Source of the DNA: Paenibacillus polygoni
Lineage (GTDB): Bacteria; Bacillota; Bacilli; Paenibacillales; Paenibacillaceae
Direction: 5' to 3'
Assembly: GCF_030263935.1 (NCBI RefSeq)
Contig: NZ_CP127162.1
Coordinates: 3,295,501-3,359,500 of the forward strand
Length of the DNA stretch: 64,000 nt
This document shows, piece after piece, positions 13,741 to 16,488 of this stretch. The first letter of the stretch is position 1, and each line of letters starts with the position of its first letter. Position numbers and translations under genes: made by a program. The notes beneath the pieces were generated by a model, which was not told where the DNA came from, searched no databases, and saw nothing but the letters and a program-made list of their open reading frames with translations.

Positions 13741-13786
13741 AAAAAAAACGATTCCCACCAGCTAGAAAAAGCTAGTAAGAATCGTT
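13741..13786 (-). terminator. intrinsic terminator of the receptor-pheromone cassette
   Basis: On the minus strand the arms AACGATTC/GAATCGTT with the inner pair AGCTAG/CTAGCT are followed by eight Ts (complement of 13741-13748). It lies 109 bases past the stop of the small pro-peptide gene. A terminator this far down supports a transcript that covers the small gene as well as the receptor gene. Confidence 0.88.
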
Positions 13787-13894: not shown

Positions 13895-14011
13895 TTATCT
13901 GCCAGTGTACTCAGATCCATGATCAGCTAGATCCAATTGGACTGGAGTGTAACTAAAAGTTACTACTGCTAGACCCAGCAGGAGTGCTACGGAAAGAAGG
14001 GCTTTTTTCAT
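13895..14011 (-). CDS. Phr/Alo-like exported signalling pro-peptide (short gene overlapping the receptor gene)
   Basis: This 38-codon gene reads from ATG 14011 to TAA 13895. GAGGAGA lies about 8 bases before the start, so translation is well supported. The product has a classic export signal: Met-Lys-Lys, then a hydrophobic core ALLSVALLLGLAVVTF (residues 4-19). A short polar tail follows, ending DLADHGSEYTGR. That layout is the one of Phr, PapR and other RRNPP pro-peptides, which are exported, trimmed and re-imported as 5-10 residue signals. It overlaps the last 59 bases of the receptor gene in the +1 frame, as phr genes overlap rap genes. I cannot place the mature peptide. I see no separate promoter inside the receptor gene, so it is probably co-transcribed. 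Confidence 0.75.
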   Translation of the reverse strand: MKKALLSVALLLGLAVVTFSYTPVQLDLADHGSEYTGR

Positions 14012-14822
14012 CGGATAAGTCTCCTCTCATAATGATATCGTTTAGTATATCATAACACAGCTTTAACTGTGAAACACTGCCAAATTTTCTAATTACTTCA
14101 AATAATGATATTGCTTTTTTAAAATATTTATCATTGCCTAACTGATCCGCTGCAAAAAGAATGTGCAAAGTCAGATCAATCGCAGCAGAGTGTTCTTGTC
14201 TTTTGTGTCTATATAAAGCTAACTGATACTGATAAGCCAAATAATGCGCTGCCTTAACCTTCTCTTTATAGTGAGTATAGTCTTTTATGTGTGGACTTAA
14301 CTGATTAATTTCTGTTTCCACATCGTAATTGTATTGATTCGCAGAACGAAGGATATTTATTAATCCTTGAAGTGCTTGATCGGGCGTTTTAACTAGAAAT
14401 TCAACATACTCAGGTATTCTTTCTTGTTTACCATCTAGTACATCAATTTGCAGTGTATTCGCTGAAGCGAAAAATTTGAAATCTTCTATAATAAACTTTC
14501 CTGTTTCCGTAGAATCATTAAGCCAATCCAGATTCGCATACAGTGATATGTACTCTCTCGATTTGCCCAGTTCACCTAATTTCTGATAGGATAAACTCTT
14601 CATCAAAGAACTATAACCAAAATAATAAATAATATGTTGTTTAAATTCATGAGAAGTGGATTCCGTTTCAACGAGTTCCTTGTGAATTTCTTTGGCTAAA
14701 GTCATCAATTCGTCTGAGAACGAAAGCACTTCCTCCCAATTCTCTAAGGTATAGTTGATCTGAATCAACTTCACGATTGTGTCTAAGTCGAGAGATTCAC
14801 TATAAGGATAAGGTTCGTGCAT
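13953..14822 (-). CDS. helical-repeat (TPR-like) RRNPP-type peptide receptor candidate
   Basis: The product is 289 residues, almost entirely helical, with repeated helix pairs (YTLENWEEVLSFSDELMTLA, GYSSLMKSLSYQKLGELGKS, LAYQYQLALYRHKRQEHSAA, LFAADQLGNDKYFKKAISLF). These are spaced like tetratricopeptide repeats. I see no helix-turn-helix at the N-terminus, so it resembles Rap-type more than PlcR/AimR-type receptors, though it is shorter than Rap (about 370). The ATG at 14822 lies six bases after AGGAGG; the GTG at 14837 is part of the ribosome site itself. The Ser/Pro-rich C-terminus (PSFRSTPAGSSSSNF) is what the overlapping pheromone signal sequence encodes in this frame. Function is inferred from the downstream pro-peptide gene and the fold. 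Confidence 0.65.
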   Translation of the reverse strand: MHEPYPYSESLDLDTIVKLIQINYTLENWEEVLSFSDELMTLAKEIHKELVETESTSHEFKQHIIYYFGYSSLMKSLSYQKLGELGKSREYISLYANLDWLNDSTETGKFIIEDFKFFASANTLQIDVLDGKQERIPEYVEFLVKTPDQALQGLINILRSANQYNYDVETEINQLSPHIKDYTHYKEKVKAAHYLAYQYQLALYRHKRQEHSAAIDLTLHILFAADQLGNDKYFKKAISLFEVIRKFGSVSQLKLCYDILNDIIMRGDLSDEKSPSFRSTPAGSSSSNF

Positions 14823-14861
14823 TATTTCCCTCCTCACTATTTAATATCATATTTTTACTAT

Positions 14862-14890
14862 ATTTTACATTACCTATAACATCAGGTCAA
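14862..14890 (-). promoter_or_regulatory. sigma-A type promoter of the receptor gene
   Basis: On the minus strand TTGACC (14890-14885) and TAAAAT (14867-14862) are 17 bases apart. They lie about 40 bases before the receptor ATG. The sequence match is good and was not tested. Confidence 0.6.
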
Positions 14891-15024: not shown

Positions 15025-16488
15025 GTGCGATCACAAAGTTATGACTTTGCTTTTACACAAGCAGCGATCGGTATGGCTCTCATTTCGTTAGATGGAACCA
15101 TTCTCAATGCAAATCAGGCACTTTATGATCTCTTGGGATATAAAAAGCCAGATATCATTTCATCTCCCCCTCTTCCTTTCATGGAAGACGACATGATAAT
15201 TCATATCATTCAAGCAGGACAATCCCTTCCGCTGGGTCTTAGTAGTCCCAGTTATACACGGATCGAACAAGAATACGTTCATCCTTCAGGCAATAAAGTT
15301 TCTCTTCACATCCATGTTTCCATGGTTTTGGATAACAATCAAGTTCCTATATATTATTTGGCTCAATTTGATAATATCACGAAGATTAAACATGCAGAGG
15401 AGCAGCTGCAGGTAGCGAAGAACGCTTTACATGATAATGAACACTTTCTTCAACAGATGTTAGAAGGGCTTTCTCTCACTGTGCTGATTACTGTAGACGG
15501 AATTATTAATTATGTGAATCCCGCTGGGCTGCAATTGGTCTATGCTGAAAGTATGGATGAAGTTCTAGGGAAAAGTACAGATCAGTTTGTAGATCCCTCA
15601 AGTCACCGTATTCTGTTGGAACGCAGGGAACAGTATGATAAGAACAAGGAATTAGGATCTGTTCGCTATCTAATCCGATGCCTAAATGGACATAAGAAAT
15701 ATGTGGAAGGATTTTCATTACAAATTACCTTTAAAGGTCAGGATGCTGTCATTGGAATTTTCAAAGATATCACAAAACAAGAAGCAGAGAAAGAACGCAC
15801 GATGCAATCCGAAAAGCTATCTACTGCCGGCCAATTAGCTGCGGGAATTGCCCATGAAATCCGCAATCCACTCACGGCGATCAATGGATTTATGAAACTG
15901 CTCCGCTCCTCTAAGGATAAGTCGGATCAATACATTTCGATCATTGAATCCGAGCTGAAACGTATCGAATTCATTGTAAATGAACTGCTCGTCTTATCCA
16001 AGCCTCAAAAGAACCATACCAGCACACCACTAAATTTAATGTCTTTAATAGATCAAGTAATTACATTAATGTATGGACAAGCTTCTCTTAAGAACATCGA
16101 GATTGTTACACAATACCCTGATAAACCCTTCATTTTAATTATGGGTGTGGAGAATCAACTGAAGCAAGTATTCATTAATTTACTTAAAAATGCACTGGAA
16201 GCGATGAATCATGGAGGAATGATCCAGGTTTATCTACAGGTCATCGATAAAGAAGTCCAAATTCGTGTTCAAGATCAAGGATACGGCATGACCAAAGATC
16301 AAATGGATGCCCTAGGAAAGCCCTTTTATACAACGAAAGATACAGGAACAGGCCTTGGATTTATGATCACACAAAATATTATCCATAATCATGGCGGAGC
16401 TATTACAGTAGACAGTATTCTTGAGCAGGGTACCACTTTTACCGTATCCCTACCTATGATCATGATTGCAGATAAAGAGAATTTTTAA
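15025..16488 (+). CDS. PAS-PAS sensor histidine kinase, sporulation-kinase type (orphan)
   Basis: This is a cytosolic sensor kinase of 487 residues with no membrane segment. Two PAS domains lie at about 8-125 and 135-250. A HisKA domain follows with the phospho-acceptor His in AHEIRNPLTAINGF near residue 277. The ATPase domain has N box NLLKNALEAM, G1 DQGYGM and G2 TGTGLGF. The HEIRNPLTAI form and the lack of a neighbouring response regulator match KinA/KinE-like kinases that feed the Spo0F-Spo0B-Spo0A phosphorelay; that role is inference. The start is the GTG at 15025, behind AGAGGAGA. A terminator-like hairpin follows at 16535-16580. The gene is divergent from the RRNPP-like receptor gene. 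Confidence 0.88.
   Translation: MRSQSYDFAFTQAAIGMALISLDGTILNANQALYDLLGYKKPDIISSPPLPFMEDDMIIHIIQAGQSLPLGLSSPSYTRIEQEYVHPSGNKVSLHIHVSMVLDNNQVPIYYLAQFDNITKIKHAEEQLQVAKNALHDNEHFLQQMLEGLSLTVLITVDGIINYVNPAGLQLVYAESMDEVLGKSTDQFVDPSSHRILLERREQYDKNKELGSVRYLIRCLNGHKKYVEGFSLQITFKGQDAVIGIFKDITKQEAEKERTMQSEKLSTAGQLAAGIAHEIRNPLTAINGFMKLLRSSKDKSDQYISIIESELKRIEFIVNELLVLSKPQKNHTSTPLNLMSLIDQVITLMYGQASLKNIEIVTQYPDKPFILIMGVENQLKQVFINLLKNALEAMNHGGMIQVYLQVIDKEVQIRVQDQGYGMTKDQMDALGKPFYTTKDTGTGLGFMITQNIIHNHGGAITVDSILEQGTTFTVSLPMIMIADKENF

Follow-up and report, generated by a model that had tools for sequence, protein, structure and literature searches.

An AloR-related receptor gene without a detectable helix-turn-helix region overlaps a putative pro-peptide gene in Paenibacillus polygoni

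What does a relative of the AloR receptors respond to, and through what does it act, when the region that carries the helix-turn-helix (HTH) of AloR is missing? The question is raised by two overlapping genes of Paenibacillus polygoni located in a 64,000-nucleotide stretch of contig NZ_CP127162.1, which is referred to here as the window. A preliminary description based on the nucleotide sequence had proposed that they form an RRNPP-type quorum-sensing pair, and the coordinates, strand, +1 frame and 59-base overlap that it gave were correct. The receptor gene occupies positions 13953–14822 of the reverse strand, with its ATG at 14822 and its stop codon ending at 13953, and codes for 289 amino acids. 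The AloP-like pro-peptide gene, 38 codons at 13895–14011 of the same strand, starts inside the receptor gene, and the 59 bases from 13953 to 14011 are shared in the +1 frame by the 3′-end of the former and the 5′-end of the latter. The pro-peptide has a basic start (MKK) followed by a hydrophobic stretch and a polar tail, with ADHGSEYTGR as its C-terminal end; the conserved core DHGSEY, encoded at 13907–13924 (reverse strand), probably forms the central part of the mature peptide. Its 38 amino acids and Kyte-Doolittle peak of 2.98 fit the criterion for Alo peptides, i.e., 32–50 amino acids with an N-terminal hydrophobic helix. The pair also fits the RRNPP/RRNPPA criterion, which PMC10075063 gives as a receptor of 250–500 amino acids directly beside a small exported pro-peptide, export being judged here from composition. 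As had been pointed out, the Ser/Pro-rich tail of the receptor is the site overprinted by the signal sequence.

The signals expected for expression of the pair were found around it. The promoter, the ribosome binding site of the small gene and the terminator had been described before, and all three are present. The predicted promoter, TTGACC-17-TAAAAT, is located at 14862–14890 of the reverse strand and has 10 of 12 matches. The predicted intrinsic terminator, a 17-pair stem followed by a T-run, is located at 13747–13786 of the same strand, 109 bases past the pro-peptide stop; promoter (14890–14862) and terminator (13786–13747) thus flank the two genes. Since the region has 15 promoter-like sites when 6.2 are expected, the match to TTGACC-17-TAAAAT carries little weight by itself. 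The same elements are found in the window and in all four relatives (of a total of 12) whose upstream DNA was compared, one of them 77% identical. Terminator-like sites number 2 versus an expected 0.5. A Shine-Dalgarno sequence, GAGGAGA, precedes the pro-peptide gene at 14020–14026 (reverse strand; exact letters in 8 of 13 loci), and GAGGAGGG, read from the sequence at 14828–14835 of the same strand, would serve the receptor gene. Inside the receptor gene and ahead of the pro-peptide gene there is also a candidate internal promoter with an extended -10 site, TTCACA-18-TATACT with TG (14044–14073, reverse strand), and the pro-peptide may have its own transcript. The corresponding segment, TTATGATAT, is common to 11 of the 13 loci, for which the codons for a conserved Cys-Tyr-Asp-Ile are an alternative cause.

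The relationship of the receptor to known families was assessed using AloR13, a tested receptor of Paenibacillus polymyxa (PMC7425212). A pro-peptide encoded in another Paenibacillus genome, G024, contains the exact AloP13 fragment published in that study, and therefore the gene preceding it was taken as AloR13. Residues 3–287 of the window receptor align to residues 178–463 of AloR13 (29% identity, E 7e-38), and the first approximately 178 residues of AloR13, which bear the HTH, have no counterpart. Neither Pfam nor NCBIfam gave an HTH family for the window receptor at E values up to 1, and no Pfam HTH was found in six other receptors of the same short form. Pfam HTH_3 matches two of the three long receptors tested; AloR13 is the exception, and its first approximately 75 residues align (E 5e-14) to the start of a paralog recognised there as HTH_3 by Pfam. 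The preliminary proposal of an RRNPP pair stands insofar as the receptor is related to that group through AloR13, but the protein is devoid of the N-terminal HTH described for all AloRs. A search against Rap, PlcR, NprR, AimR and Paenibacillus Alo receptors had also been suggested; none of the RRNPP chains in PDB, whether of Rap, PlcR, NprR or AimR, was reached by sequence searches. TPR_20 matches the window receptor weakly (E 0.003, below cut-off), and a 26-row profile built from both receptor forms, short and long, gave a match of 24 positions to designed TPR proteins (6.6e-5). No effector domain was identified in the window receptor, and a weak PTS_IIA match, below cut-off, was set aside. 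The window receptor was filed as a member of an HTH-less sister branch of AloR rather than as an AloR.

It could be argued that the protein is an ordinary Alo transcription factor that binds DNA via an unrecognised surface or with an HTH borrowed from a separate small regulator. Some RRNPP HTH domains do escape public models: AloR13 has no Pfam HTH match at E up to 0.1, and PMC10075063 reports likewise for the HTH of AimR. However, the aligned part of AloR13 starts only at residue 178, past the HTH region, and no HTH gene adjoins the receptor in the window. Furthermore, when 32 long AloRs were cut to their first 195 residues and used as queries against 57 short-receptor stretches (with flanks of 1.5–3 kb, the window's locus being entered twice), there was no match at 55 of them, and the same queries recovered 32 of 32 long loci as a control. 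At the two matching stretches, L114 and L116, the best matches start at residues 111 and 101, respectively, beyond the HTH. We consider a DNA-binding receptor of this kind unlikely. As the AloR-type HTH region is missing, the window receptor cannot use that domain for DNA binding.

The next question is whether the small open reading frame is a genuine partner of the receptor. The closest relatives of the window receptor are found in Paenibacillus. In 12 close relatives, with receptors 57–98% identical to that of the window, the two genes overlap in the same frame by 59 or 65 bases (13 of 13 loci including the window), and all of them conserve the MKK-plus-hydrophobic signal and a [DN]HG[SA][ED][YF] core. 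Start, signal and C-terminal core were all kept in the comparison of relatives that had been recommended. Across four close orthologs (the window, L002, L032 and L003) the small open reading frame is 93% invariant, compared to 40, 17, 50, 60, 2 and 68% in the 40-base blocks past its stop. In the part of the gene located past the receptor stop, the pN/pS ratio was 0.334 (four independent pairs, 69 codons), with a null mean of 1.03, and in none of 2000 random placements of an equal number of changes was the value as low, the null being a uniform placement of changes without mutation bias. When all pairs of nine representatives were used the figure was weaker, 0.51 in both gene parts. These results indicated that the pro-peptide gene is under purifying selection beyond the receptor stop.

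A rule for small open reading frames, consisting of a start codon, K or R near the N terminus, a hydrophobic stretch and a Shine-Dalgarno sequence, was drawn up following an initial inspection of the relatives and was applied to short receptors, long receptors and, as a control, 174 unrelated genes from the same DNA; only exact copies were removed, and near-copies count more than once in the numbers that follow. Candidates were found at 40 of 53 short receptors, all 40 overlapping, at 23 of 35 long receptors, 20 of them overlapping, and at 11 of the 174 controls, with a single overlap. The dipeptide HG was present within the last 20 residues in 39 of the 40 short-receptor candidates, 12 of the 23 long-receptor candidates and none of the 11 controls. 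The receptor/pro-peptide cassette is real and exceeds chance. It is most improbable that the small gene codes for a secreted or membrane peptide unrelated to the receptor, or that the overlap is fortuitous, when the relatives keep the HG core, the start, the frame and the overlap together with the receptor and the controls gave one overlapping candidate. The observation in favour of this alternative is a weak match of the signal part to the cittilin RiPP family (E 0.0068), which was rejected as it is below the curated cut-off.

The pro-peptides of the short receptors share a readable pattern. All 36 distinct sequences compared have HG among their final 20 residues; this set includes 29 identified by the rule and 7 added by hand, with several near-copies, and excludes the L119 pro-peptide, in which HG sits farther from the end. 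HG is preceded by N, D or Y in 35 of the 36; the residue after it is A or S in 30, followed by N, E or D in 31 and by Y, H or F in 32, for a consensus of [NDY]HG[AS][NED][YHF]. This core 6-mer is the C-terminal end of 20 of the 36 pro-peptides. In the clade that includes the window it is followed by a variable tail (TGR, RPK, EGR and others), and because of this variability DHGSEY, with or without TGR, is most likely the part read by the receptor. The tail DHGSEYTGR highlighted in the preliminary description is present, but what is conserved in it is DHGSEY; extensions of the TGR type vary, and the last letters by themselves may not be the signal. In the pro-peptides of L049 and L121 the NHGAN core occurs twice, suggesting two signal copies per precursor.

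Not all receptors have a peptide gene. Relatives without an exported short open reading frame had been held to speak against a pair, and they do occur: the candidate is absent in 12 of 47 short-receptor rows, which fall in two clades on the tree described below, one of them represented by L078–L081. They look like orphan receptors, which have also been reported for Alo (PMC7425212). Nine of the 12 (L025, L026, L028–L030 and L078–L081) end approximately 25 residues before the equivalent end of the window receptor. The idea that the small gene shaped the receptor tail is in keeping with these nine, but not clearly with L009, L051 and L109, where an early receptor end is not clear. In L010 and L019 the peptide is present and the overlap is only 4 bases.

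Short and long receptors are separated by one branch (support 100/99) in a tree of 47 short and 31 long rows that omits rows shorter than 250 amino acids as well as L106, L093, L096, L071 and L069. The same split was found in a second tree of 53 chosen rows, 33 short and 20 long, in which L114 and L116 were counted as short and which takes in other genera, two P. polymyxa plasmids and receptors from a Brevibacillus plasmid and phage. Both trees are unrooted, and the loss of the HTH is therefore something that we infer rather than a result. L114 (1282–2319, forward strand) is an HTH-less receptor of 346 amino acids that keeps part of the N-terminal region of the long AloRs; the match to that region extends some codons upstream of the open frame, and its overlapping peptide ends in NHGWGVKN. 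L116 (reverse strand; 365 amino acids), also HTH-less, keeps part of the N-terminal region as well and has no overlapping peptide candidate. Both may be intermediates or decaying genes.

A short-receptor profile detected the family, long and short forms together, in at least 89 of 196 sampled Paenibacillaceae genomes and at least 5 of 17 genera. By a hand count among the matches listed, about 50 of 75 Paenibacillus genomes contain an open frame of 250–345 amino acids, peptide-less rows included. The two short-type receptors of the P. polymyxa plasmids carry no other annotation than "hypothetical protein", and the PLSDB table, itself incomplete, lists no peptide gene for them; both have overlapping open reading frames, ending in DHGAEY and NHGANS. 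In the Brevibacillus phage SecTim467 (L123), a long AloR-related "putative DNA-binding protein" adjoins a gene annotated as Spo0E. A broader proposal, to which we give even odds, is that the short receptors constitute a separate and widespread HTH-less class of the AloR/AimR clan, in which the HTH would have been lost independently of Rap and subfamily 17, together with N-terminal repeats, and whose members would be repeat-only, peptide-gated switches that act via a protein partner and respond to an HG-core code.

If DNA is not the target, the partner has to be looked for elsewhere. One member of the family was found in the window genome, with no further AloR13 match at E up to 10 and no long AloR. 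Consequently, the short receptor probably functions on its own, with no long AloR involved. The short form could also be imagined to interfere with full-length AloRs, as a decoy or dominant-negative partner, or to be a mere peptide sink, because both receptor forms coexist in some genomes, e.g., G007 and G024, and HG is also present in the 12 long-type peptides mentioned above. We regard this as very improbable for a pair that has its own peptide and is maintained by selection in a genome with no second AloR13 match, and the decoy reading was dropped because no long AloR was found there.

Alternatively, the receptor could be a phosphatase of the Rap kind or could block a response regulator of sporulation, perhaps in connection with the adjacent, divergent PAS/HisKA/HATPase histidine kinase gene at 15025–16488. 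The kinase has partial, below-cut-off similarity to KinD and to many other kinases, and Alo13 works through Spo0E (PMC7425212). On the other hand, when five neighbour genes were checked at 34 loci the kinase adjoined the receptor in 3, L031–L033, which are the closest relatives of the window, and a functional link was dropped for this reason. A Spo0E target like that of Alo13 was also dropped because the sole Spo0E match in the window genome is about 1.8 Mb from the receptor. In three genomes with 1, 3 and 5 short rows no Spo0E was found within 40 kb of the short receptors, and Spo0E was within 1 kb of 2 of 14 and 4 of 19 long-type rows. A phosphatase or blocker acting in this pathway is, in our opinion, an unlikely alternative. 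No recurrent partner gene was evident among the five neighbours at the 34 loci. Genes of the DUF2653 or HpaB type recur beside five more distant receptors, and the other loci listed have different neighbours. The segment 13334–18277 of the window, between DUF2653 and HpaB-type genes, may be a recurrent receptor site; the L077 receptor is beside a DUF2653 gene, and the peptide-less receptors L078–L081 are near an HpaB-type gene.

Our preferred reading, to which we assign a probability of roughly two in three, is that the locus encodes a self-contained peptide-signalling pair whose receptor is an HTH-less relative of AloR, gated by the peptide and acting by binding a protein. That the two genes form a peptide-receptor pair is well supported. 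In the proposed mechanism, export of the 38-residue pro-peptide would be followed by its cleavage to a short peptide built around DHGSEY (the 6-mer itself or DHGSEYTGR), which an oligopeptide permease would bring back into the cell; the window genome has six SBP_bac_5 matches above cut-off that are candidate peptide importers. The peptide would then bind the product of the overlapping gene, probably a cytoplasmic receptor of TPR type. Lacking an HTH, the receptor most likely has a protein as its target, like the Rap proteins. In the unoccupied state it would bind, inhibit or sequester a partner such as a repressor, a response regulator or another factor, in outline like Rap, and peptide binding at high cell density would free this partner. 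A precedent is RappLS20, which binds RcopLS20 directly and releases it in response to its peptide (PMC7430634).

The Alo systems (AloR/AloP) of Paenibacillaceae were defined by Voichek et al. 2020 (PMC7425212), who covered 16 type-strain receptors and wrote that "All Alo receptors contain" an HTH. In later papers, Rap proteins are called the only RRNPPA members without HTH (PMC9765709), and the HTH losses in a 2025 structural phylogeny are those of Rap and of subfamily 17 of Anoxybacter (PMC12700828). The latter study describes AloR and subfamily 08 as having an HTH plus nine TPRs, places AloR in a clan other than that of Rap and NprR, with AloR, subfamily 08 and AimR forming clan C, and reports that the peptides of subfamily 08 and AimR carry DPG. 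The detection limits in PMC10075063, a TPR E value below 1e-5 and a default overlap of at most 60 bases, could miss the window receptor or the 65-base overlaps. No description of HTH-less AloRs was recognised in searches of open-licence papers, whose supplements or figures may list short forms. Of the 17 rows of G024, where the AloP13 fragment occurs unchanged, 3 are short, and some short receptors may therefore already be in print as AloR. The new point is the HTH-less branch beside AloR. A sizeable branch of this kind would mean that switches from DNA-binding to non-DNA-binding receptors are more frequent than described, and it would provide, in a genus with agricultural uses, a repeat-only receptor whose peptide code can be read. 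With a single pair and no long AloR found, the window genome is a clean setting for a partner search.

Compared to known systems, the pair has features of more than one. Bacillus rap and phr genes can overlap, and Rap-Phr systems, including RappLS20, resemble the pair in having an HTH-less receptor, a neighbouring secreted pro-peptide and, likely, a protein-binding mode. Nonetheless, by homology the window receptor goes with AloR, and the PDB sequence searches reach no Rap chain. Subfamily 08 and AimR belong to the same clan as AloR, and their hosts are Paenibacillaceae or phages of Bacillaceae; unlike them, the window receptor is devoid of HTH and its peptide has HG instead of DPG, the difference for which an assignment to RRNPP_detector cluster 8/subfamily 08 was rejected. 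The pair differs from Alo in the absence of the HTH and the first approximately 178 residues of the receptor, in the absence of a nearby spo0E, and in the peptide core, which is [NDY]HG[AS][NED][YHF] in the short-receptor peptides and is followed by TGR in that of the window. It shares with Alo a homologous receptor, the bacterial family in which both are found, and the HG of the peptide core, which mature SHGRGG also has.
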